A stretch of DNA of 38,568 nt from an uncultured bacterium (GTDB lineage Bacteria > Verrucomicrobiota > Kiritimatiellia > RFP12 > UBA1067): NCBI GenBank assembly GCA_902779865.1, contig CACZDG010000016.1, positions 1-38,568 of the forward strand, in the 5' to 3' direction. Position numbers and translations under genes: made by a program. Positions 1-11,145 of the stretch are shown here, piece after piece. Positions within the stretch are counted from its first letter, which is position 1. Every line of letters begins with the position of its first letter. The notes under the pieces are model-generated. The model did no database searches. It saw only the letters and a list, made by a program, of their open reading frames with translations, and was not told the origin of the DNA.

Positions 1-12
1 GTTTCGCCTACA

Positions 13-21
13 ATTATACCA
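13..21 (-). promoter_or_regulatory. Possible extended -10 promoter reading out of the left edge
   Basis: On the minus strand these bases read TGGTATAAT, the same extended -10 motif found before several genes in this window (1082, 20479, 26829 on the plus strand). No good -35 is visible 17 bp upstream. Transcription would leave the window to the left, so no gene can be assigned. Confidence 0.3.
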
Positions 22-53
22 TATCCGGCGTAGCCGCTGTCGTACTAATTTGA

Positions 54-237
54 TTGAAACTATGGTCATAATGACAGCAAACGACATCGGTAGGATGTGG
101 CGACCGAGCCGGTGGTTTGCAACCGCCGTAGGCTAGGATAGATCATGCAGTGGCACTACATCCCCAACGTCACGTGACATGTGACGGCTTTTCCTGATAA
201 GGGTGGGAGTCAATGCTCCAGTGGGAGGAAGATAAGT
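54..237. other. Gene-free stretch, left part
   Basis: No open frame here has a credible start, ribosome site or recognisable product. The only structure is a small inverted repeat, CGTCAC at 168-173 and GTGACG at 181-186 (7-nt loop, then gcTTTT), too weak to call a terminator with confidence. Confidence 0.4.
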
Positions 238-384
238 TAATATGGCACATTATTTATATTAATGTGGCACAGTATATAGTATATTGTGGCATATTATATA
301 TATTAATGTGCCACATTAATATATATATTGTGCCATAAAAATATAAATAATGTGCCACATTATGTTTATTAATATGCCATATTA
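238..384. repeat. AT-rich dyad array: seven TRTGGCAYA sites at exact 22-bp spacing
   Basis: Seven copies of a 9-bp near-palindrome (TRTG-G-CAYA or its complement) have their central triplets at 244, 266, 288, 310, 332, 354 and 376, exactly 22 bp apart. The first three read GGC and the last four GCC, so the block is one imperfect inverted repeat centred on base 311. Inter-site DNA is almost pure A/T in an otherwise GC-rich window. A 22-bp step is about two helical turns, so all sites lie on roughly one face of the DNA. This suggests a cooperative operator or iteron-like array, or a large cruciform-forming element. No gene lies within 300 bp on either side in this window. Function is inferred, not known. 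Confidence 0.75.
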
Positions 385-484
385 TTCTATTGCACTCCAA
401 ACGCGGATGGTCGAATGTCGTCGTAGTCATCTGCCCGTGATCCTCGGCGGCAGGGAGTGAATGCAGGCCAGGATGACAGTATGT

Positions 485-512
485 GTACGACGGCAAGCGT
501 ACGACAGCAAGG
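485..512 (+). repeat. 28-bp dispersed repeat, copy 1 (two 14-bp units)
   Basis: Two tandem 14-mers, GTACGACGGCAAGC then GTACGACAGCAAGG. Related dimers occur at 21981-22008 and 22862-22889, both inside SPFH protein genes. This copy is intergenic. Confidence 0.6.
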
Positions 513-620
513 AAAGGCAGTACACGGGGCTGAGAATGTGGAACGGAGTGTCCTGCGGCTTCTCTTCAAGGGAAACTAGCCAGCTTATTGGGGGTATTGG
601 ATTAGCGTCTTCCGTATGTT

Positions 621-644
621 GGGACGAGGCGTCCCGTTGAGCCG
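621..644 (+). repeat. GC-rich palindromic dispersed repeat
   Basis: GGGACG-agg-CGTCCC (621-635) followed by GTTGAGCCG. Close relatives lie at 901-922 and 2581-2604, before the ATGs of the LRR gene remnant and the giant LRR gene. It resembles a REP-type element: short, GC-rich, intergenic and palindromic. Confidence 0.55.
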
Positions 645-685
645 TGGCGGGGCAAGCCGCAATTCCCCAAAACCGAATTTTCCAC

Positions 686-714
686 TTGTTTTGAGCTGGG
701 GGATTTGGTATCAT
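686..714 (+). promoter_or_regulatory. Promoter upstream of the truncated LRR gene
   Basis: TTGTTT at 686-691, a 17-bp spacer, then TATCAT at 709-714 preceded by TTTGG. The extended -10 matches others in this window, notably the one before the RNA methyltransferase gene (15225). Transcription would start near 721, giving a leader of roughly 235 nt before the ATG at 958. It may be the original promoter of the LRR gene before the AlbA_2 gene came to lie between them. Confidence 0.5.
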
Positions 715-837
715 TATTGCCAATGACACGCCTTGAATGGCAGATTCCGCGTAGCGGTGAAGCGGAAGGGCGCACGCTCTTCCGAAGGGATGGTTTTGCA
801 GCTTCTGGAAGGCTGCGCTCCATGTGCGGGATGTTTT

Positions 838-858
838 CGGACGCACACAGTGCGTCCG
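838..858 (+). other. Strong hairpin in the leader
   Basis: A perfect 9-bp stem, CGGACGCAC and GTGCGTCCG, closes a 3-nt loop (ACA). No T-run follows, so it is not a typical intrinsic terminator. It lies between the promoter at 686-714 and the ORF remnant at 958 and could be an RNA structure or a REP-like palindrome. Confidence 0.4.
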
Positions 859-895
859 TCAGGACTGAGATGGTCGCGCTCCGTCGCGGCCGCAG

Positions 896-1080
896 GGTGG
901 GGCGAGGCGTCACGCCGAGCCGCAAACGAAAAACAACTTGAAAGGTAAAACGAAAATATGAAAGCGAAACTGATGATGATGGCTGCTGCAGTTGCCGTGG
1001 CGTTTGGCGCGTGGGCCGATACGGAAACGGTCGGCGGCTACACATGGACGTATCAAATCAGTGGCGACACGGCGGAGGTT
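896..1080 (+). repeat. Left direct repeat (5' end of LRR gene, copy A)
   Basis: This stretch repeats at 2577-2802: a GC-rich palindromic repeat, CCGCAAACGA, AACAACTTGAAAGG, the ATG and the first LRR-gene codons. Copy B has an extra stretch in the signal peptide. The copies flank the AlbA_2 gene. Similarity stops just after the codons for GDTAE, where the extended -10 of the AlbA_2 gene begins. Confidence 0.75.
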
Positions 1081-1089
1081 TTGGTATAA
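958..1089 (+). pseudogene. Truncated 5' remnant of a BspA-like LRR surface protein gene
   Basis: Starting from the ATG at 958 (GAAAGG 12 nt upstream) the frame encodes 43 residues: a signal peptide MKAKLMMM...AFGAWA, then the mature start TETVGGYTWTYQISGDTAEV, and stops at 1087. It is nearly the same as the N-terminus of the giant LRR protein (2641) and resembles the LRR protein at 13620, but no LRR follows. The stop codon lies inside the -10 box of the next gene. The gene was therefore cut by insertion or recombination that brought in the AlbA_2 gene. The remnant may still be transcribed from 686-714 but would yield only a short secreted peptide. Confidence 0.65.
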
Positions 1090-1090
1090 T
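1082..1090 (+). promoter_or_regulatory. Extended -10 promoter of the AlbA_2 gene
   Basis: TGG directly precedes a perfect TATAAT at 1085-1090. No -35 is visible. A start near 1097 leaves about 16 nt of leader carrying GAGGTGA (1103-1109) ahead of the TTG codon at 1113. Confidence 0.6.
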
Positions 1091-1112
1091 ATGCGGTGAA
1101 GCGAGGTGAAGA

Positions 1113-2567
1113 TTGCTGTTGAAGGACTACATAGGCGAGGCAACGGCGTACGACAAGAAGCTGATGCTTGAGCGCAAAGATCCTACGAGCTGGCTCAAGA
1201 GCGTGAGCGCGTTCGCCAACACGCAGAGCGGCAAGTTGCTGTTCGGCGTGGCGGACGACGGCACGCTTGTCGGCCTTGCCGATGCACAGGACGATTCCGA
1301 GTTCATAAGCGAAACCATCAAGATGCAGATGGACCCCGTGCCGGAGATTAACCTCTCGATCCATGAAGAGGACGGCAGGCAATTCGTGGTTGTCGAGATA
1401 AAGGCCGGCTCCGAGACGCCGTACTACACTTTAGTCAGGGGCCACCGCGATGCATACATCCGCATCGGCAACGAGAGCGTCAAGGCTAATGCAATTCAGT
1501 TGAAGCGGCTCGTTCTTAAGAGCGAGCGCCAATCGTGGGATTCTCTTACGTCAAAGCATCTGAGGAGTGAAGAATCCTTTGAAGTTCTGCGCTCGATCTA
1601 TCGCAAAAGGACACTGCACAAGTTTGAGGAAAACGATTTCGTGTCTTTTGGCCTTGTTGCTGGCGACGGACATCTTACGAACGCCGGTGCTCTTTTGGCC
1701 GATGGAGCTCCAATCCGGCATTCGCGGGTGTTCTGTACACGATGGAACGGTCTTACCAAAACGCATGGAACATTGGATGCGCTCGATGACGATGAATTCT
1801 CTGGCGGGCTTCTCACTCTCTTGGATGTGGCGAAGGATTTCGTGAAGATCAACTCGAAGTCGCCTTGGAAGAAGCTTAAGAACGGAGATGGCCGTGTCGA
1901 ATATCCGGAATATCCGGCTGACGCTGTCGAGGAGAGCATTGTCAACGCGCTTATTCATCGCGATTATCTCGAAATCGGCAGCGAAGTCCACATCGACATG
2001 TTCGACGACAGACTGGAAGTCTACTCGCCTGGCGGGATGCCAAGTGGGGAGCTGATACAGGATTTGGATGCGCATTATGTCCCATCGACCCGCAGAAACC
2101 CGGTGATAGCCGATCTCTTTCAACGGCTTGACTTAATGGAACGGCGTGGCAGCGGCTTTGGCAAGATAATTGATGCGTACAAGGCAGAAAGCGATAAACG
2201 ATGCATTGACGTCAAGCCGTTTTTCAGGTCCTCTGCAACGGCTTTCTTCGTGATTCTTCCAAATCTTAACTACAGCTTGAAAGCGGCTACGGCTACTACC
2301 GATACTATCACCGATACTATCACCGATACTATCACCGTCCAAGGGCTTGCAACTAGCAAGACTATCCCTGAAATCGTAGGCAAAGACACAGCTAAAGTAT
2401 ATCGTCTTATAAGCCTTGACAACCACATTACGGCGGAAAGAATTGCGGCAAGACTGCGCTTGAGCGTGGCGGGTGTTCGTTACCATCTCGCAAAAATAAA
2501 GAGCGCGAATCTAGTACGATATGTCGGCAATCCAAAGAAGGGTGGCCATTGGGAGGTCGTAAAGTGA
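1113..2567 (+). CDS. AlbA_2 (Schlafen-type) DNA-binding protein with ATPase-like and winged-helix domains
   Basis: A 484-residue protein. Residues about 10-125 match the AlbA_2 / Schlafen fold (LERKDPTSWLKSVSAFANTQ, then LLFGVADDGTLVGL). Residues about 265-370 match the HATPase_c_4 domain usual in this family (EESIVNALIHRDY, GSEVHIDMFDDRLEVYSPGG, RRNPVIADLF, ERRGSGFGKI). Residues about 420-480 look like a winged helix (ITAERIAARLRLSVAGVRYHLAKI). A linker at 396-408 carries TDTI repeats. Such proteins are usually annotated as transcriptional regulators or ATP-binding proteins; the target is unknown. The TTG start is chosen for GAGGTGA 3 nt upstream and the promoter at 1082-1090; a second TTG lies two codons on. 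Direct repeats of an LRR gene 5' end flank it, so it looks like an insertion between two copies and might influence the adjacent surface genes (inference). Confidence 0.85.
   Translation: MLLKDYIGEATAYDKKLMLERKDPTSWLKSVSAFANTQSGKLLFGVADDGTLVGLADAQDDSEFISETIKMQMDPVPEINLSIHEEDGRQFVVVEIKAGSETPYYTLVRGHRDAYIRIGNESVKANAIQLKRLVLKSERQSWDSLTSKHLRSEESFEVLRSIYRKRTLHKFEENDFVSFGLVAGDGHLTNAGALLADGAPIRHSRVFCTRWNGLTKTHGTLDALDDDEFSGGLLTLLDVAKDFVKINSKSPWKKLKNGDGRVEYPEYPADAVEESIVNALIHRDYLEIGSEVHIDMFDDRLEVYSPGGMPSGELIQDLDAHYVPSTRRNPVIADLFQRLDLMERRGSGFGKIIDAYKAESDKRCIDVKPFFRSSATAFFVILPNLNYSLKAATATTDTITDTITDTITVQGLATSKTIPEIVGKDTAKVYRLISLDNHITAERIAARLRLSVAGVRYHLAKIKSANLVRYVGNPKKGGHWEVVK
2298..2337 (+). repeat. 12-bp tandem repeat in the AlbA_2 gene
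   Basis: ACCGATACTATC occurs three times in a row (2298, 2310, 2322) plus a partial copy, encoding TDTI units in the linker between the ATPase-like and winged-helix domains. Being a multiple of three, copy-number change would alter linker length without a frameshift. Confidence 0.8.
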
Positions 2568-2576
2568 GACGGAAAT

Positions 2577-2802
2577 GGTGGGGCGAGGCGTCCCGCCGAG
2601 CCGCAAACGAATGAAACAACTTGAAAGGAAATATGAGAATATGAAAACGGAATTGATGATGATGGTAGGGACGGCTCGCCGAGCCGTCCGCAATATGGCG
2701 TTGTTTGTGGCGGTGGCCGTGGCGTTTGGCGCGTGGGCCGCGACGGAAACGGTCGGCGGCTACACGTGGACATACCAAATCAACGGCGACACGGCTGAGA
2801 TT
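2577..2802 (+). repeat. Right direct repeat (5' end of LRR gene, copy B)
   Basis: Partner of 896-1080. It spans the GC-rich repeat, the AACAACTTGAAAGG ribosome-site region, the ATG at 2641 and the N-terminal codons of the intact giant LRR gene. It differs mainly by an extra palindromic stretch at 2669-2689. Confidence 0.75.
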
Positions 2803-5800
2803 TACAATGGCAGTTATTCTGCCGCCATCTCGCCATCGCCTACTGGCGCCGTGACGATTCCATCCACGCTCGGCGGCAAGCCCGTTACGAGCATCGGGAG
2901 TTATGCGTTCCACGGTTGTAGCGGTCTTACGAGCGTGACGATCCCGGACTCTGTGACGAGCATAGCTTCTTCTGCTTTCTCCGGTTGCAGCGGCCTTACA
3001 AACGTGACGTTGCCAGGAAGGCTCTTGTCTGCGATTTCGTCTGATGGATGGACGTTACTTTCGACTGATACGGACGGCACGAAGGAATACCAATCGGCGT
3101 CAATCGGTAACAGCGCTTCCACTTACATGTCATTGACACTTACTGGCCCGTATGAATTTACATTCAGCTGGAAGGTGTCGAGCGAAAACAACTATGACTA
3201 TCTGCGCTGGTATCTTGACGGGACGGAGAATTCGAAGATCAGTGGAACAGGCGGCACATGGCAGACCGTTTCTGTATCCGTGCCTGTGGGCGAACATACG
3301 ATCAAGTGGACTTATTCTAAAGACAGCAGCGTAAGTAGTGGCAGTGATTGTGGTTGGGTGCGTATTCCAGAGATTACTTGGGGGCGGACGATGTCTGGTT
3401 TGTTCCCAGATTCTTACACCACGCTTCAATCGGTGACGTTGACTGGTACGACAATGGAAATACCCGCCTATGCGTTCTCCGGTTGCAGCGGTCTTACGAG
3501 CGTGACGATCCCGGACAGCGTGACGAGCATCGGGAGTTATGCGTTCTACAATTGCAGCGGCTTGACGAGTGTGACGATACCGGACAGCGTTACGAGCATC
3601 GGGTCTTATGCGTTCTCCGGTTGCAGCGGATTGATGGGTGTGACGATACCGGACAGCGTTACGAGCATCGGTAGTTCTGCGTTCTACAATTGCAGCGGGC
3701 TTACTAGCGTGGTGATACCGAACAGCGTGACGAACATCGGGGATAATGCGTTCTCCGGTTGTAGCGGGCTAACGAGCGTGACGATACCGCAGTATGTGTG
3801 TACTCGCCGTTTGTCCGATGTCTTTGCATCAAGTTATCAGTCTATAACTAACGTCGTGATTCTTGACGGTGTTACGAGCATCGGGAGTTCTGCGTTCTCT
3901 GGCTGCAGCGGCTTGACGAGTGTGACGATCCCGAACAGCGTTACGAGCATTGGTGATTCTGCGTTCTACAATTGCAGCGGCCTTACGAGCGTGGTAATCC
4001 CGAACGGCGTTACGAGCATTGGTGATTCTGCGTTCTCCGGTTGCAGCGGTCTTACGAGCGTGACGATTCCGAATAGCGTTACGAGCATTGGGAGTTCTGC
4101 GTTCTACAATTGTAGCGGTCTTACGAGCGTGGTAATCCCGAACGGCGTTACGAGCATTGGGAGTTCTGCGTTCTCCGGTTGCAGCGGGCTTGAGGAAATC
4201 ACGTTGCCATTCGTTGGTGCGCAGCGCGGCAACACTGGGTCGTCCAACTCTCTCTTCGGCTACATATTCGGCACGTCGTCCTACTCTGGCGGTACGCAGA
4301 CGCTTCAATACTATTCCTCATCCTCATCCTCATACTACTACATACCTTCCAATCTGAAGAAGGTTGTGATCACCGATGAAACAGTTATCGGCTATGGGGC
4401 CTTCTACAATTGCAGCGGCTTGACGAGTGTGACGATTCCCGACAGCGTGACAAGCATCGGTAGTTCTGCATTCTTCGGTTGCAGCGGGTTTACTAGCGTG
4501 ACGATCCCGCGGTATGTGTGTGATCGCCGCTTGTCTGATGTTTTTTCATCAAGTTATCAGTCTATAACTAACGTCGTGATTCTTTATGGCGTTACTAGCA
4601 TTGGATCTTCTGCGTTCTCCAGCTGCAGCGGCTTGACGAGTGTGACGATACCGAACAGCGTTACGAGCATCGGGAGTTCTGCGTTCTCCGGCTGCAGCGG
4701 CTTGACGAGTGTGACAATTCCAAACAGCGTTACGAGTATCGGTAGTTCTGCGTTCTCCGGTTGCAGCGGCTTGCTGTCAATATCGGTTGGTTCGGGGAAT
4801 GCCAATTACAAGTCAATAAATGGGTTATTGCTCTCAAAGGATGGGAAGTCTCTTATACAAGGAGTGAATGGCAATGTTACGATCCCGAACAGCGTTACGA
4901 GCATCGGAAGTTCTGCGTTCTCCGGTTGCAGCGGCTTGACGAGCGTTACGATCCCCGATTCCGTTACGAGCATCGGTAGTTCTGCGTTCTCCGGTTGCAG
5001 CGGCTTGACGAGCGTTACGATCCCCGATTCCGTTACGAGCATCGGTAGTTCTGCGTTCTCCTACTGCAGCGGCTTGACGAGTGTGACGATACCGAACAGC
5101 GTGACGAGCATCGGGAGTTCCGCGTTTTATGGGTGCAGTGGGCTTGAGGAAATCACGTTGCCATTCGTGGGTTCGCAGCGCGGCAACTCTGGATCGTCCA
5201 GCTCTCTCTTCGGTTACATATTCGGCACGTCGTCCTACTCTGGCGGTACGCAGACGCTTCAATATTATTCCTCATCCTCATCCTCATCCCACTACATACC
5301 TTCCAATCTGAAGAAGGTTGTGATCACCGATGAAACAGTTCTCGGATATGGGGCCTTCTACAATTGCAGCGGCTTGACGAGTGTGACAATACCGAACAGT
5401 GTGACGAGCATCGGGAGTTCTGCGTTCTCCGGCTGCAGCGGCTTGACGAGTGTGACGATTCCCGACAGCGTGACAAGCATCGGTAGTTCTGCATTCTCCG
5501 GTTGCAGCGGGTTTACTAGCGTGACGATCCCGCGGTATGTGTGTGATCGCCGCTTGTCTGATATTTTTTCATCAAGTTATCAGTCTATAACTAACGTCGT
5601 GATTCTTGATGGCGTTACTAGCATTGGATCTTCTGCGTTCTCCGGCTGCAGCGGCTTGACGAGTGTGACGATACCGAACAGTGTGACGAGCATCGGGAGT
5701 TCTGTGTTCTCCGACTGCAGCGGTTTGACGAGTGTGACGATACCGAACAGTGTGACGAGCATCGGGAGTTCTGCGTTCTCCGGCTGCAGCGGCTTGACGA

Positions 5801-8800
5801 GTGTGACGATACCGAACCGCGTTACGAGCATCGGGAGTTCTGCGTTTTCCGGTTGCAGCGGTCTTACGAGCGTGACGATTCCGAACAGCGTGACGAGCAT
5901 CGGGAGTTCTGCGTTCTCCGGCTGCAGTGGTCTTACGAGCGTGACGATTCCGAACAGCGTGACGAGCATCGGGAGTTCTGCGTTCTCCGGCTGCAGTGGT
6001 CTTGAGGAAATCACTTTGCCATTCGTGGGTGCGCAGCGCGGCAACACTGGGTCGTCTAACTCACTCTTCGGCTACATATTCGGCGCGTCGTCCTACTCTG
6101 GCGGTACGGAGACGTGTCAATATTATTCCTCATCATCATCCTCATACTACTACATACCTTCCAATCTGGAGAAGGTTGTGATCACCGATGAAACAGTTCT
6201 CGGCTATGGGGCCTTCTATAATTGCAGCGGCTTGACGGACATGACGATTCCGGGCAGCGTAACGCATGTTGAGAGGTCTGCATTCGTCGGCTGTAGCGGC
6301 TTGACGAGAATTGTGCTGGAGGAGGGGATACGGGAGTTGCCAGACGGGCTTTTCGACGGGTGCGACAACATAACGTCGGTGATATGGCCGTCCACGCTCG
6401 TGGAGTTCGGAATCGACGTCCTGCCTCCAAAGATTGTGGAGGCGCTCAATTATGACGAGAACGGCTTTGTCATATACAACAACTGGGTGCTGGACTATCA
6501 GGATCGAGATGCTTCGCTGGTCGTGATTCCGGAGAGCGTTGTAGGTATCGGGCGCGGCGCGTTCTTCGAGATGTTTGATCTTGAGATGGTTGCAATGCCC
6601 GAGTCGCTGAAGTGCATTGCGGCGGGGGCGTTCGAGGGATGCACGTATGTTCAGGAGTTTCAGTTCGGGTCCGGCATGCGGCATGTGGGCGCGTTGGCCT
6701 TCTGGGATTGCACTGCACTTCTGGACGTTTCGTTTGCTGACGGGTTGGAGCACATCGGCACCAACGCATTTGATGGCTGTTGGCAGATGTTGTCCGTACG
6801 GCTGCCGGTGACGGTCACGAACATCGGTGACAATGCGTTCATTGACTGCGAGAACCTGATGGGCGTGACCGTACCGACGCACGTGAAGACTATGAGCGAC
6901 CTCTTTCCCGCCGCCTATTCTCAGATTGAGTCGGTGGAGATCGCCGAAGGGGAGACGACGGTGATGGATGGCATGTTCGCCGGCTGCAGAAACCTGTCCG
7001 GGAATGCGATGCAGACGGACATGTCGATGCTCCTGCCGACGATCACAAACATCGGCGCGCGGGCGTTCCAGAACTGTACGTCGCTTACGGCAATGGCGTT
7101 GCCGGATAGCGTCGTAACGATGGGCGAGTCGGCGTTCGAGGGATGCTCGGGGCTGTGGAACGTGAAGCTTTCACGGAATCTGTCGGTGCTTTCCGCGAAA
7201 ACGTTCAACGGATGCTCCATGCTGGAGTCGATGGTGATTCCGTCAAGCGTCACAAACCTCGGCACGCGCTTCTTCAGCGGCAAGACATATTCCGGAAGCC
7301 AAAACGCGCTATACTATCTCTGCACCAACGCTCCGGCATGCGCCTCCGACGCCTATGCGGCGATTTCCAAAGGCGTCACCACCTACGTCTTGCAGAACTC
7401 TCGCGGATGGGACGGCCGGACTGGTTCACGCACGTTGCCGCAATCATGGAACAGCAATCCGATCAAATACTGGACGCCCGTCCAGTTCGACGTCTTGTTC
7501 AACGCAAATGGCGGCAGGTTCGATCTGCCTGGCGGATCGGCCTCGACTTGGGGCGAGCAGCAGATCAAAGACATGGGCTATGCCCTGCCTTCCACCGAGC
7601 CGGTGCGTCCGGGATGGGCGTTCGAGGGATGGTGGACTGAGGCTGCGGGTGGGGCGCAGGTGAAATATACGACGAAAGTGACGGCGACACGTCCGCACAC
7701 GCTTTATGCGCACTGGCGCTCGTTGGACGAGCGCATGACGGTTTCGTTCAACGCGAACGGCGGCACTGTTGTTTTGCCGGGCACGCAGGATTACGTGCCG
7801 GGACAGACATTCGGGCAGTTCCCCGTGCCGACGCGGCGCGGCTACACGTTCCAGGGATGGTGGACGGAGTCCGTGAACGGCATCCGCATGACGGAGGCGA
7901 CTGCGGTTCCGGCAGCGGACATGGAGTTGTTCGCGCACTGGGAGCCAATCACGTACTACGTGCGCTTCCACGCGAACGGCGGCACGGGGGCGGATGTGGA
8001 CCAGACGTTCGTCTTTGACGAGCGGCAGGCGCTGGACACGCACACGTTCACGCGGACTGGCTTCGCGTTTTCGGGGTGGGCCACCACGCCGAGCGGACAG
8101 GTGCGCTACGCCGAGAACGCCAGCGTAGTGAATCTCGAGGAAACGCAGGACACCGTCGTGGATCTGTATGCCGTGTGGTCTGGCGCTGGCTATTCCATAC
8201 GTTTCGACGCCAATGGCGGCGTTGGCTTCATCGACAACCAGACCATCGCGATCGGCGAGGTGCAGAACCTGTGGCCTTGTCTGTTCACGAGGGCGGGTTA
8301 CTCGTTTGTCGGATGGGCTAAGACCCCTACCGATGCGGCGGCTGGCGTTGTGTCGTACCTCGACTGCGCGGCCGTAAGGAATCTCGTGACTGACAATAGT
8401 TCTACGGTTCCGCTCTACGCGGTGTGGGCCGCCGCCACCCAGACGGTAAGGATTTCGTTCGATGCCAACGGCGGTAGCGTGTCGCCAGCTTTTTGGAACT
8501 GCGTGCCGGGGACGGCGGTTGAGGCGTTCCCGCTCCCGACGCGTCCAGGTTTCACGTTCCAGGGTTGGTACACTTCCGTTGACGGAGGTACGCGGAGGGA
8601 TTCAATTGCCCGCGTCGCGGCGGCGCAGACGTTTTACGCCCATTGGGTGCAGAACGGTTCCGAGCGGTTGCAGGAGATGTCATTCGCCGTGACCTTCAAC
8701 CCGAACGCAGGGGCGATAGGAAATGCGTCATACGCCTCCATCGTCGTCGAGTGGGGAAAACCCACGATGCAGGCTGGTGCGTCCGCAACTAAAACGACGC

Positions 8801-11145
8801 GTAGCGGATACACGCTCGTTGGATGGTATGACACGAATGCGTCTAGCGGCGGCAACATGGTGTTCGACGCGCGCGGGTACGCGGTGAACGGGAAATACTG
8901 GAATGGAGCGTATTCGCCAAAGGTCTCTTCTGCGATTTGGAAGCATGTAGGCAACGTGACCGCATACGCCAGATGGGTCGCCTCCGATCGGTTCAGGGTG
9001 GTGACGTTTGACGCCAACGGCGGAACGATGGCGAGCGCTCCTTACGCATGCGTAGTTGAGCAGGGGAAGTACACGAACCAGGCGGGTGCGTCCGGCACGA
9101 AGGTCGCGCGTGAGGGAGACTACACGCTCATGGGGTGGTACGACACGAACGCGTCGAGCGGCGGAAACATTGTATTCGACGCGCGCGGGTACGCCGTGAA
9201 CGGCAAATATTGGGACGGATCGTATTCGCCGGGCGCATCTTCCGCGAAATGGAAGAACGCCGGTGGCGTGACCGCGTACGCTCGGTGGGCGCAGAACAAG
9301 AGTACTGTCACTCTTAACGCGAACGGCGGGACAGTGAGCGGGGCAGCGACCGTCACTGCGCAGGTCGAGTACGGGAAGTTTACGAGTCAGGCCGCCGCGA
9401 ACAGGACCGTTTCGCGTACGGGCTACACGCTCGTTGGGTGGTACGATACGAACGCGTCGAGCGGCGGCAACATGGTGTTCGACGCGCGCGGATATGCGGT
9501 GAACGGCGTGTATTGGGATGGGGCGTATTCGCCTAAGGTGTCTTCGGCGACATGGAAGTATTCCGGGAATGCGACCGCGTACGCGCGGTGGGTTGCCTCC
9601 AGCCCGTATAGGGTGGTGACGTTCGACGCGAACGGCGGCACGATAGGCAATGCTTCATACACCGCCATCGTGGTGGAGCAGGGTAAGGCCACGATGCAGG
9701 CCGGTGCGTCCGGGACGAAGGCGACGCGCACGGGCTACTCGCTCGTAGGTTGGTACGACACGAACGCATCGAGCGGCGGCAGCATGGTGTTCGACGCGCG
9801 GGGCTACGCAGTAAACGGCAAATACTGGAACGGGTCGTATTCGCCGAAAGTCTCGTCCGCGACTTGGAAGCATGTAGGTAACGTTACCGCATACGCGCGG
9901 TGGGTCAAGACTCCGCCGTACCGCGTTGTGACGTTCGACGCGAACGGCGGAATCGTTTCTAACTCGGCGTACGCGGCAGTGGCTGTCGAGGACGGCAAGA
10001 ATACTATGCAGGCTGGGGCTTCTGGAACACAGGTGGCGCGCTCGGGCTACGTCCTTGTGGGGTGGTTCGACACCACAAACTCCGTCGGTGGCAACGTGGT
10101 GTTCGACGCGCGTGGGTACGCCGTAAACGGTAAATACTGGAACGGGTCTTACGTCCCGAGCAAGTCCGCCGCGACGTGGAAGTACGCCGGGAACGTGGTG
10201 GCGTACGCGCGTTGGGCGCAAAACAAAAGCACTGTGACGCTCAACGCTAACGGTGGAACCGTGAGCGGGCAGGCGACAGTCTCCTTCCAGGTCGAGTACG
10301 GCAAGTACGTTAGCCAGGCCGGTGCAAACAGGACCGTTTCGCGTTCAGGCTACACGCTCCGTGGATGGTACGACGCAAAGAGCGGCGGCAACATGGTCTT
10401 TGACGCGCGTGGCTATGCCGTGAACGGCGTGTACTGGAACGGGTCGTATTCGCCGAGCGTATCCTCCGCCACGTGGAAGGGCACTGGCAACGTGACCGTT
10501 TACGCGCAGTGGGTTGCCACCCCGCCGTACAGGGTGGTGACGTTCGATGCGAACGGCGGCGTTCTTGGAAACGCCTCCTGCAACTGCGTTGTGGAGCAGG
10601 GCAAATACACGAGCCAGGCGGGGGCGTCCGCCATGAATGCGACGCGTTCGGGCTACACGCTTGCGGGGTGGTACGACGCGAAGAGCGGCGGCAACATGGT
10701 GTTTAACGCACAGGGTTATGCCGTGAACGGAACGTACTGGAACGGGTCTTACGTCCCAAGCAAGTCCTCCGCTACGTGGAAGTTTGCCGGTAGCGTGACC
10801 GCATACGCGCGTTGGGTTACTGCGTCTGGCAACATCAGAATGGCGGCTCCGTCCGGGGACATGGAGGATGGCTTCTGGTCTGGTGATATGGTTGAAGCCG
10901 AGGCTCCGTTATTCTTCCAGGGCGAGTTCGAGGGCACGTTCGCGGATGGCGGCGGCAGGTTCATGCTGACGCTGGACGAGGACCTTGAGACGGCGTATTT
11001 CGTTACGTGGACGGATGACGGCGGCGTCGCATGCGAATGCGAGGCGGCGGTTGTCGGAGACGTGCTCATCCTAATTACGGAAACGGGCGAGGTATATCAC
11101 CTCGTCTGGGACAACGGCTGCCTTGTCGCCACACAAGAGGAATAA
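2641..11145 (+). CDS. Giant secreted BspA-type LRR / InlB B-repeat surface protein
   Basis: A 2834-residue protein. The ATG at 2641 is preferred over the in-frame ATG at 2575 because it matches the starts at 958 and 13620 and has GAAAGGAA upstream; the earlier codons would come from the dispersed repeat. A signal peptide ends near FGAWA. LRR_5 (BspA/TpLRR) repeats span about 65-1555, with a beta-sandwich-like insert at about 130-270 (WKVSSENNYDYLRWYLDG). About 30 modules of 23 residues (IPNSVTSIGSSAFSGCSGLTSVT) are nearly identical; later ones diverge. Residues about 1615-2730 hold 12 InlB B-repeat (Flg_new) units with FDANGG and GYTLVGWYDT. The last 90 residues form a domain shared with the next protein. 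Families of this type sit on the surface in adhesion or ligand binding; the ligand here is unknown. Confidence 0.85.
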   Translation: MKTELMMMVGTARRAVRNMALFVAVAVAFGAWAATETVGGYTWTYQINGDTAEIYNGSYSAAISPSPTGAVTIPSTLGGKPVTSIGSYAFHGCSGLTSVTIPDSVTSIASSAFSGCSGLTNVTLPGRLLSAISSDGWTLLSTDTDGTKEYQSASIGNSASTYMSLTLTGPYEFTFSWKVSSENNYDYLRWYLDGTENSKISGTGGTWQTVSVSVPVGEHTIKWTYSKDSSVSSGSDCGWVRIPEITWGRTMSGLFPDSYTTLQSVTLTGTTMEIPAYAFSGCSGLTSVTIPDSVTSIGSYAFYNCSGLTSVTIPDSVTSIGSYAFSGCSGLMGVTIPDSVTSIGSSAFYNCSGLTSVVIPNSVTNIGDNAFSGCSGLTSVTIPQYVCTRRLSDVFASSYQSITNVVILDGVTSIGSSAFSGCSGLTSVTIPNSVTSIGDSAFYNCSGLTSVVIPNGVTSIGDSAFSGCSGLTSVTIPNSVTSIGSSAFYNCSGLTSVVIPNGVTSIGSSAFSGCSGLEEITLPFVGAQRGNTGSSNSLFGYIFGTSSYSGGTQTLQYYSSSSSSYYYIPSNLKKVVITDETVIGYGAFYNCSGLTSVTIPDSVTSIGSSAFFGCSGFTSVTIPRYVCDRRLSDVFSSSYQSITNVVILYGVTSIGSSAFSSCSGLTSVTIPNSVTSIGSSAFSGCSGLTSVTIPNSVTSIGSSAFSGCSGLLSISVGSGNANYKSINGLLLSKDGKSLIQGVNGNVTIPNSVTSIGSSAFSGCSGLTSVTIPDSVTSIGSSAFSGCSGLTSVTIPDSVTSIGSSAFSYCSGLTSVTIPNSVTSIGSSAFYGCSGLEEITLPFVGSQRGNSGSSSSLFGYIFGTSSYSGGTQTLQYYSSSSSSSHYIPSNLKKVVITDETVLGYGAFYNCSGLTSVTIPNSVTSIGSSAFSGCSGLTSVTIPDSVTSIGSSAFSGCSGFTSVTIPRYVCDRRLSDIFSSSYQSITNVVILDGVTSIGSSAFSGCSGLTSVTIPNSVTSIGSSVFSDCSGLTSVTIPNSVTSIGSSAFSGCSGLTSVTIPNRVTSIGSSAFSGCSGLTSVTIPNSVTSIGSSAFSGCSGLTSVTIPNSVTSIGSSAFSGCSGLEEITLPFVGAQRGNTGSSNSLFGYIFGASSYSGGTETCQYYSSSSSSYYYIPSNLEKVVITDETVLGYGAFYNCSGLTDMTIPGSVTHVERSAFVGCSGLTRIVLEEGIRELPDGLFDGCDNITSVIWPSTLVEFGIDVLPPKIVEALNYDENGFVIYNNWVLDYQDRDASLVVIPESVVGIGRGAFFEMFDLEMVAMPESLKCIAAGAFEGCTYVQEFQFGSGMRHVGALAFWDCTALLDVSFADGLEHIGTNAFDGCWQMLSVRLPVTVTNIGDNAFIDCENLMGVTVPTHVKTMSDLFPAAYSQIESVEIAEGETTVMDGMFAGCRNLSGNAMQTDMSMLLPTITNIGARAFQNCTSLTAMALPDSVVTMGESAFEGCSGLWNVKLSRNLSVLSAKTFNGCSMLESMVIPSSVTNLGTRFFSGKTYSGSQNALYYLCTNAPACASDAYAAISKGVTTYVLQNSRGWDGRTGSRTLPQSWNSNPIKYWTPVQFDVLFNANGGRFDLPGGSASTWGEQQIKDMGYALPSTEPVRPGWAFEGWWTEAAGGAQVKYTTKVTATRPHTLYAHWRSLDERMTVSFNANGGTVVLPGTQDYVPGQTFGQFPVPTRRGYTFQGWWTESVNGIRMTEATAVPAADMELFAHWEPITYYVRFHANGGTGADVDQTFVFDERQALDTHTFTRTGFAFSGWATTPSGQVRYAENASVVNLEETQDTVVDLYAVWSGAGYSIRFDANGGVGFIDNQTIAIGEVQNLWPCLFTRAGYSFVGWAKTPTDAAAGVVSYLDCAAVRNLVTDNSSTVPLYAVWAAATQTVRISFDANGGSVSPAFWNCVPGTAVEAFPLPTRPGFTFQGWYTSVDGGTRRDSIARVAAAQTFYAHWVQNGSERLQEMSFAVTFNPNAGAIGNASYASIVVEWGKPTMQAGASATKTTRSGYTLVGWYDTNASSGGNMVFDARGYAVNGKYWNGAYSPKVSSAIWKHVGNVTAYARWVASDRFRVVTFDANGGTMASAPYACVVEQGKYTNQAGASGTKVAREGDYTLMGWYDTNASSGGNIVFDARGYAVNGKYWDGSYSPGASSAKWKNAGGVTAYARWAQNKSTVTLNANGGTVSGAATVTAQVEYGKFTSQAAANRTVSRTGYTLVGWYDTNASSGGNMVFDARGYAVNGVYWDGAYSPKVSSATWKYSGNATAYARWVASSPYRVVTFDANGGTIGNASYTAIVVEQGKATMQAGASGTKATRTGYSLVGWYDTNASSGGSMVFDARGYAVNGKYWNGSYSPKVSSATWKHVGNVTAYARWVKTPPYRVVTFDANGGIVSNSAYAAVAVEDGKNTMQAGASGTQVARSGYVLVGWFDTTNSVGGNVVFDARGYAVNGKYWNGSYVPSKSAATWKYAGNVVAYARWAQNKSTVTLNANGGTVSGQATVSFQVEYGKYVSQAGANRTVSRSGYTLRGWYDAKSGGNMVFDARGYAVNGVYWNGSYSPSVSSATWKGTGNVTVYAQWVATPPYRVVTFDANGGVLGNASCNCVVEQGKYTSQAGASAMNATRSGYTLAGWYDAKSGGNMVFNAQGYAVNGTYWNGSYVPSKSSATWKFAGSVTAYARWVTASGNIRMAAPSGDMEDGFWSGDMVEAEAPLFFQGEFEGTFADGGGRFMLTLDEDLETAYFVTWTDDGGVACECEAAVVGDVLILITETGEVYHLVWDNGCLVATQEE
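2669..2689 (+). repeat. Perfect 9-bp-arm palindrome inside the signal-peptide coding region
   Basis: GGACGGCTC-GCC-GAGCCGTCC, encoding part of GTARRAVR between MKTELMMMV and the hydrophobic core. The truncated copy at 958 lacks this stretch, so it looks like an in-frame insertion. Its left 12 bases recur at 15027-15038. Confidence 0.65.
3480..6310 (+). repeat. Tandem 69-bp LRR repeats with higher-order cassettes
   Basis: About 30 modules of 69 bp are near-identical in DNA, not only in protein. A longer cassette (GLEEITLPFVG..., a serine-rich stretch, IPSNL.KVVITDET) recurs from 4189, 5143 and 6001. Another block (YVC.RRLSD.F.SSYQSITNVVI) recurs near 3790, 4507 and 5527. This implies recent duplication or gene conversion. 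Confidence 0.85.

Follow-up and report, generated by a model that had tools for sequence, protein, structure and literature searches.

HU proteins are generally known as non-specific DNA binders. Within the HU-IHF superfamily, the HU-HIG/HU-DNA_bdg domain is best known in Bacteroidetes. Burroughs, Kaur, Zhang and Aravind reportedly described HU-HIG (Cell Cycle 2017) and predicted that it functions in partition and in the recognition of invasive elements. HU-HIG is named in a gene table in an excerpt of PMC11035120, and TDE_2259 of Treponema denticola is discussed as a non-specific HU protein in an excerpt of PMC12724145. TDE_2259 has the same domain pair (PF14848 and PF14734) as proteins considered below; however, the excerpt mentions no upstream array.

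The locus described here lies near the start of the window, i.e., the whole stretch of 38,568 bases that was analysed. It consists of a palindrome array, its flanks, and the end of an HU-like gene:

160..237, plus strand: left flank common to the five own-genome copies (104/780 pairwise differences, 13.3%)
238..384, no strand assigned: array block made up of seven palindromes of 9 bp (TRTGSCAYA) with a step of 22 bp and A+T-rich spacers
241..249, no strand assigned: site 1, TATGGCACA
263..271, no strand assigned: site 2, TGTGGCACA
285..293, no strand assigned: site 3, TGTGGCATA
307..315, no strand assigned: site 4, TGTGCCACA, with the array centre at 311
329..337, no strand assigned: site 5, TGTGCCATA
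351..359, no strand assigned: site 6, TGTGCCACA
373..381, no strand assigned: site 7, TATGCCATA
385..399, plus strand: flank to the right of the array, ending at the deletion junction
398..460, plus strand: HU-like gene remnant, 20 codons QTRMVECRRSHLPVILGGRE, of which the first lies at the junction, followed by a stop

The motif TRTGSCAYA has seven matches in the window against 0.45 expected. All seven lie in the array, their starts (241, 263, 285, 307, 329, 351 and 373) successively offset by exactly 22 bp. Dinucleotide shuffles of the window (100) gave at most three matches, and when the letters of the 147-bp block were shuffled 20,000 times, no shuffle held more than one site. The 22-bp period of the block was confirmed by Tandem Repeats Finder, and its GC content is 22% vs 60% for the window. 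The first-pass annotation had read seven near-palindromes at an exact 22-bp step, which the motif count confirms; no shuffle reached seven. The switching orientation that it also described comes down to which base, G or C, stands unpaired at the centre of a 9-bp palindrome. Since the sites are odd palindromes, this base does not confer true polarity; in a sister array family (the C48 type, see below), it differs in 18/42 comparisons, i.e., it varies freely.

The whole block had further been described as one inverted repeat centred at 311. Such a repeat exists, with 73-nt arms that are 79% complementary, but it is not special. Spacer complementarity is 0.69 about the array middle, 0.65 and 0.68 about two neighbouring mirror centres, and 0.55 and 0.50 on the other side. 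In the copy on contig C57, the middle (0.69) is exceeded by one neighbouring centre (0.71). With neighbouring mirror centres scoring about equally, whole-array mirror symmetry was rejected as a special feature; most of the inverted repeat follows from palindromic sites placed at a constant step in A+T-rich DNA. An Rfam scan of positions 1-3000 gave no match at the gathering threshold, and a tRNA scan of the window found none.

The array type occurs in five copies in its own genome, i.e., the window (C16) and contigs C34, C57, C191, and C21, the latter four with 85-93% identity to the window copy. Comparison with relatives gave a divided answer: a DNA search found the array sequence in none of 59 other genomes, but the taxonomic family widely shares the 22-bp geometry and the adjoining gene family, with palindromes that differ by subfamily. 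Among the five copies, only C57 has an intact gene, its array preceding a reading frame of 263 aa. The window copy ends at 399; the other four continue into a stretch that by eye resembles a promoter; it reads TTATACTCC in both C34 and C57, and C191 and C21 carry a slightly changed version. The 810 nt between two aligned blocks of C57, comprising this stretch, the leader, and most of the gene, are missing from the window. In C34 and C191, the HU-like reading frame is internally deleted, and C21 runs into other DNA ahead of the start codon. Because only the end of the frame survives at 398-460, the window array is taken to be the remainder of an array-plus-gene unit. A promoter scan at C57 returned three weak sites (2.1 expected), each of them on the minus strand; the promoter-like stretch seen by eye was not flagged.

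Site conservation within this array type was looked for across the five copies and was not found. Inner site bases differ in 60/420 comparisons and other positions in 103/1050 (p 0.017, in the direction opposite to conservation), and whole dyads (70/630) do not differ from spacers (97/840). In the array ahead of the intact C57 gene, sites 2, 3, and 4 are altered. The window array type looks young or decaying, the window copy may be a decaying leftover, and no claim is made that this copy is in use. For the window copy alone, a neutral and functionless A+T-rich tandem expansion is possible, with which the behaviour of the sites in its own type agrees. As an account of the arrays in general, we consider neutral expansion highly improbable, since the same step is found with unrelated and partly G+C-rich palindromes ahead of 64/101 genes of one protein family, and since sites and spacers contrast in two array types and across genera.

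Other features of the window were noted in passing. Positions 1-62 are identical in C191 and C34 and end in ATTTGATTGAAAC. As the window contig starts, and the C34 contig stops, exactly at this 62-bp repeat, a longer unresolved repeat may lie past the contig edge. A short interspersed G+C-rich repeat of the GGGGCGAGGCGTCCCGCCGAGCCG type (889-925) has some thirty matches in the genome, several of them near contig ends. Positions 1113-2567 encode a Schlafen-type AlbA_2 protein with HATPase_c_4, followed by a very long reading frame (2575-11145) with BspA-type leucine-rich repeats (1000 residues scanned).

The N-terminal part of the C57 protein matches HU-DNA_bdg (PF14848) with an E of 3.4e-7 and 30.8 bits against a cut-off of 30. 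At E up to 0.01, PF14848 was found in 15 of the 16 array-linked proteins (alignment A1), HU-HIG in 4, and DUF4469 in 3. Other HU-DNA_bdg genes in the window's genome also have upstream arrays, with different palindromes, apart from those on C45 and C18, where no upstream array was found. Two attempts at structural comparison were set aside: a PDB sequence search gave only Ika8 and Ika4 over 42 residues, with no stretch passing alone, and is regarded as spurious, and a structure predicted for one subfamily member on an alignment of three sequences reached a pLDDT of 42, too poor for use.

A profile of the 16 array-bearing proteins (A1) found 129 places in 44 of the 115 genomes of the Kiritimatiellae family. 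Leaving aside 10 places without sequence, 11 genes that came second in a tandem pair (HU-like genes do occur in such pairs), 4 with <250 nt upstream, and 3 with N, the sample comprised 101 upstream regions, each at most 420 nt long, from 39 genomes; a variant count of 104 is these 101 plus the three rows with N. Arrays were scored by self-match at lags 12-40, with a threshold of 0.55 over 88 nt. The top lag was 21-24 in 79 of the 101 regions and exactly 22 in 59. The threshold of at least 0.55 was reached by 67, in 64 of them at lag 21-24 and in three solely at a lag outside this range, while 34 remained <0.55 at every lag and 37 at lag 21-24. Since A1 members were picked from array-bearing genes, genes outside the alignment were counted separately, and 51/87 reached at least 0.55 at lag 21-24. 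The counts of controls reaching 0.55 were 0/108 for coding sequence, 0/51 for 3′ flanks, 0/304 for shuffles, 3/94 (1 at lag 22) for far-upstream controls, and 9/188 (4 at lag 21-24) for tiles, which contain known array copies. Only counts at 0.55 are used as evidence because lags 21-24 at lower scores are common in controls (24/108 coding, most not 22). Seven of the ten places first set aside for lack of sequence were added later and kept outside these counts; the lag-22 score was 0.67 in G298, 0.64 in G285, 0.57 in G305, and 0.48 in G014; in G259, G299 (C3), and G296 (C51:26138), lag 22 was not on top.

Thus, a palindrome array ahead of an HU-superfamily gene is a general architecture in this Kiritimatiellae family of gut bacteria. 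The arrays have 4 to 10 copies, mostly 5-7. Two named examples come from the Kiritimatiellae MAG RGIG1481 (goat abomasum), JAFPUH010000049.1, with five TCGTACGA-type sites of which four are exact, and JAFPUH010000001.1. Outside the family, seven strong PF14848 loci (six f3, one f50) have no array. Nor was one seen at any of nine other f3 places whose upstream sequence reached 150 nt or more (0/9), one of which has its top lag at 22 but scores 0.45; the f3 gene L069 has a weak array (0.57). A class-wide profile search found matches in 57/346 genomes, only in families f1 (44) and f3 (13). Because profile matches are limited to f1 and f3, and the f3 and f50 loci mostly lack arrays, the pairing of array and gene would at present appear to be a feature of one family.

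Several variants of the architecture were observed. The step is 24/23 bp in L034 and 23 bp in L073 instead of 22 bp; the self-match of 0.97 in L073 suggests that this array may be recently expanded or homogenised. In L041, L053, and L094, two alternating palindromes per 22-bp unit (TAGTACTA and TTGTTGCAACAA in L041) are apparent by eye, equivalent to one centre per helical turn. L037, L038, L051, L057, and L060 form a separate well-conserved HU-like subfamily (protein start MQ[KT]RI[KN]IKA) with weak upstream 21-22-bp periodicity (0.43-0.50). In addition, boxes resembling a -10 element (5 of 6 letters) follow 30/66 arrays at variable distance, and, as this distance is not fixed, no fixed promoter geometry is claimed.

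The palindromes themselves range across arrays from TCGTACGA to CGGGCAGGCCCG; subfamilies have different palindromes, some of them partly G+C-rich. On folding the arrays, no more than 10 of 200 column permutations were equally palindromic in 46/66. Over the 66 arrays, operator similarity correlates with protein similarity (Mantel rho 0.197, equalled in 0/1000 permutations), a correlation that is partly common descent.

All four array types examined have further arrays without an intact gene in the same genome, 4-8 arrays per type. The C135 palindrome ATCTAYCGRTAGAT has 23 sites in 4.3 Mb, all inside four 22-bp arrays, and its reversed control has 0. In C71 and C95, which belong to the C135 type, the gene start is kept and is followed by unrelated DNA. 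Across C135, C71, and C95, the ATCTACCGATAGAT-type sites differ at 4/294 positions (1.4%) vs 33/144 (22.9%) for the spacers (p 1.4e-13). The C8 array of this type, which has fewer sites, was excluded from this count, and the left-flank figure of C71, being one base out of register, was not used. The C48 type (GTCWGAC) comprises four seven-position arrays, C48 and the gene-less C154, C38, and C9 with 6, 7, and 6 exact sites, respectively. Here, the six inner bases of GTC.GAC differ in 6/252 comparisons (2.4%) vs 247/630 (39%) for the rest (p 3e-35). A cleaner test than the above correlation of whether motif follows protein comes from three genera with C48-like arrays, in which the inner GTC.GAC sites differ in 2/108 and positions outside in 148/270, a comparison from which G297 was left out because it has only four exact sites, 44 bp apart. 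Hence, conserved sites between drifting spacers are seen both in two types of the window's genome and in the three-genus comparison.

A second genus gives a different picture. In G021, the palindrome SCGCGGTAGAYT of one HU-like gene has 60 strand-hits (palindromic sites count twice) against 3 for the control, all but one within eight arrays with exact 22-bp steps. The eight arrays differ by 11.4% in the core, 13.5% in the spacers, and 71-74% in the flanks, i.e., there is no site-vs-spacer contrast among them. Two of the four array types therefore show this contrast, and the window type and the G021 type are without it. Given flanks that differ to this extent, the G021 arrays sit in unrelated places. 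Two gene-less G021 arrays, L231 and L234, are nearly identical over ~190 nt downstream. This shared stretch indicates that part of the dispersal occurred by duplication of longer pieces.

Copies in unrelated flanks raise the question of mobility. The array and gene could form a small mobile or gene-converting selfish unit, whose gene-less arrays would be dead or non-autonomous and whose binding would serve its own spread. The G021 flanks agree with this, as do the gene pieces left in C34, C191, the window, C71, C95, C68, and C34 of G021. However, no transposase or recombinase was seen in the unit, and relatives of the C57 protein are absent from phages, plasmids, and viral contigs, as are those of the A2 subfamily from viral contigs. 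The gene-less sites are also conserved in two types, which is not expected of dead copies. We consider a selfish element unlikely.

Alternatively, the gene-less arrays could be operators that put unrelated neighbouring genes under the HU-like protein, i.e., a plain transcription-factor network with a dispersed regulon. Neighbours of array-bearing genes were examined by scanning 55/75 reading frames at 20/21 loci (a single frame of the remaining locus went through a separate scan), with 25/46 Pfam families listed. The regulon is favoured by G021, in which the next frame downstream (mechanical calls) is co-directional at each of the six gene-less arrays that lack a gene remnant, 148-533 bp away; these frames encode glutamine synthetase III, ORF6N, a PD-(D/E)XK nuclease, an M50 peptidase, LysR, and one unknown. 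In the window's genome, however, neighbours of gene-less arrays are mixed in direction and kind: the C38 and C8 arrays lie behind the 3′ ends of both neighbouring frames, and the C71 array is flanked on both sides by opposite-strand frames. Furthermore, TATACT, the -10-like box identified by eye in C48 and C135, is altered in the gene-less C154, C38, C9, C71, and C95. Finally, the 55 scanned neighbours of array-bearing genes fall into 46 Pfam families, none with >3 members, so that the array-bearing HU-like gene has no constant partner, tandem HU-like pairs aside; likewise, no family is common to the scanned neighbours of gene-less arrays. A regulon of this kind therefore seems rather unlikely to us.

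A related observation concerns contig C68 (L217, about 90-320), which carries a C48-type leader together with the start and end of the gene; its last site is altered, no array is recognisable, and TATACT is kept. Here, it is the array that is lost and not the promoter-like box. Two further neighbours were noted: an EcoRI-type adenine methylase gene (L011, 3320-4465) near the gene-less array of C191, and an IpgD-type match (L173, 4653-7118; E 7.6e-64) in the second frame downstream of an HU-like gene in G021.

Gene-less arrays lie mostly between reading frames, the exceptions being C34, which is overlapped, and C34 of G021, which is touched by a mechanically called frame. This location, the 4-8 dispersed arrays per protein type, and the conservation of sites in two types are also what chromosome anchoring or segregation would give, with arrays acting like parS or matS and loci being gathered via a bridging HU-like protein. 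A chromosome-partition role for Bacteroidetes HU-superfamily clades was reportedly predicted by Burroughs et al. in 2017. Against anchoring speak the several independent array types per genome, the lack of a partition ATPase among the 25/46 neighbour families listed, and the second genus (G021) without site-against-spacer contrast. With these points on either side, anchoring seems to us about as unlikely as the regulon.

Considering the evidence together, the arrays are probably cooperative, self-specific binding platforms of HU-like proteins, self-regulatory at the gene and acting in trans elsewhere, and the window block would be a stranded cognate array of the C57-type protein. In this model, ~4-10 palindromic sites 5′ of the coding sequence would lie on one helical face, one per two turns. 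Because a 22-bp step corresponds to two helical turns, seven dimers would share one face of the DNA, and the encoded HU-like protein most likely occupies its own array cooperatively, as dimers in a row. A freely varying central base would fit a dimer that contacts two half-sites. We infer the identity of the binder since the gene has its own array, the motif follows the protein, and arrays in trans are conserved. The position of the array suggests that the protein controls its own promoter, and since subfamilies have different palindromes, paralogues in one genome would stay separate. The same protein may occupy the dispersed intergenic arrays too, working in trans as a platform for local chromatin or regulation; for these arrays, we regard local regulation as about as likely as chromosome anchoring. 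The first-pass annotation had listed a cooperative operator or a nucleoid-protein nucleation site among its readings. This part fits, in that arrays of the same geometry precede HU-superfamily genes and recur without a gene with conserved sites, the last in two types. Its alternative, a replication or partition iteron array, gains no support, with no Rep or Par family among the 25/46 families listed for 55/75 neighbours.

More tentatively, and against somewhat longer odds, this HU-superfamily family could comprise mutually separate, sequence-specific chromosome organisers. Each genome would hold several protein types, and each type would have a private palindrome and several phased arrays around the chromosome, one of them at its own gene, in a private-address system that gathers or silences chosen loci. 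If so, this HU branch, in which paralogues have addressed and phased arrays of their own, would offer many naturally matched pairs of protein and DNA from which to work out how the HU fold reads sequence, and would amount to a scheme of chromosome organisation or regulation with several private channels per cell. Each HU-like protein is then predicted to bind its own array and not its neighbour's.

How do these arrays compare with known systems? Tn7-like transposon ends carry 22-bp TnsB sites, but no transposase was found among the listed neighbour families or five scanned window proteins, and a Tn7-like end was rejected. CRISPR arrays have unique spacers of about 30 bp; here, spacers of 8-15 bp recur in register between copies, no cas family is among those listed or in the five window proteins, and this possibility was also discarded. 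Plasmid iterons and the centromeres TubC, parH, and SopC likewise place repeats on one face beside the gene of the binder. However, no replication initiator or partition ATPase is among the neighbours listed here, and gene-less copies lie elsewhere. An iteron replication origin was not supported, as the gene behind the C57 array is HU-like and its protein has no match in the plasmid collection. BldC and other cooperative operator multimers resemble the present case in forming cooperative multimers on regularly spaced repeats, but BldC is MerR-like and acts on direct repeats, and the excerpt of that work mentions no dispersed array families (PMC5859096).

Among the matches listed in searches on PF14848, DUF4469, HU-HIG, HU-like arrays, and Kiritimatiellae repeats (subscription journals and preprints lay outside the search), no such arrays are described, and we found no earlier description of private phased arrays of HU-superfamily genes in the literature searched. 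The closest protein relatives are those of the HU-HIG/HU-DNA_bdg clade (PF18291 and PF14848, with DUF4469, PF14734), whose profiles the linked proteins match and which has several copies in some genomes; the difference lies in the private, helically phased palindromic arrays, of which that literature makes no mention. In organisation, the nearest parallels are ParB-parS and MatP-matS, where one DNA-binding protein similarly has several dispersed palindromic chromosomal sites. As regards parABS, no partition NTPase or other ParA-type family is among the 25/46 Pfam families listed for 55/75 neighbours at 20 loci. In contrast to both systems, the protein here is of HU type, its sites are set in seven-site arrays with a 22-bp step, and one genome holds several private sets of them.
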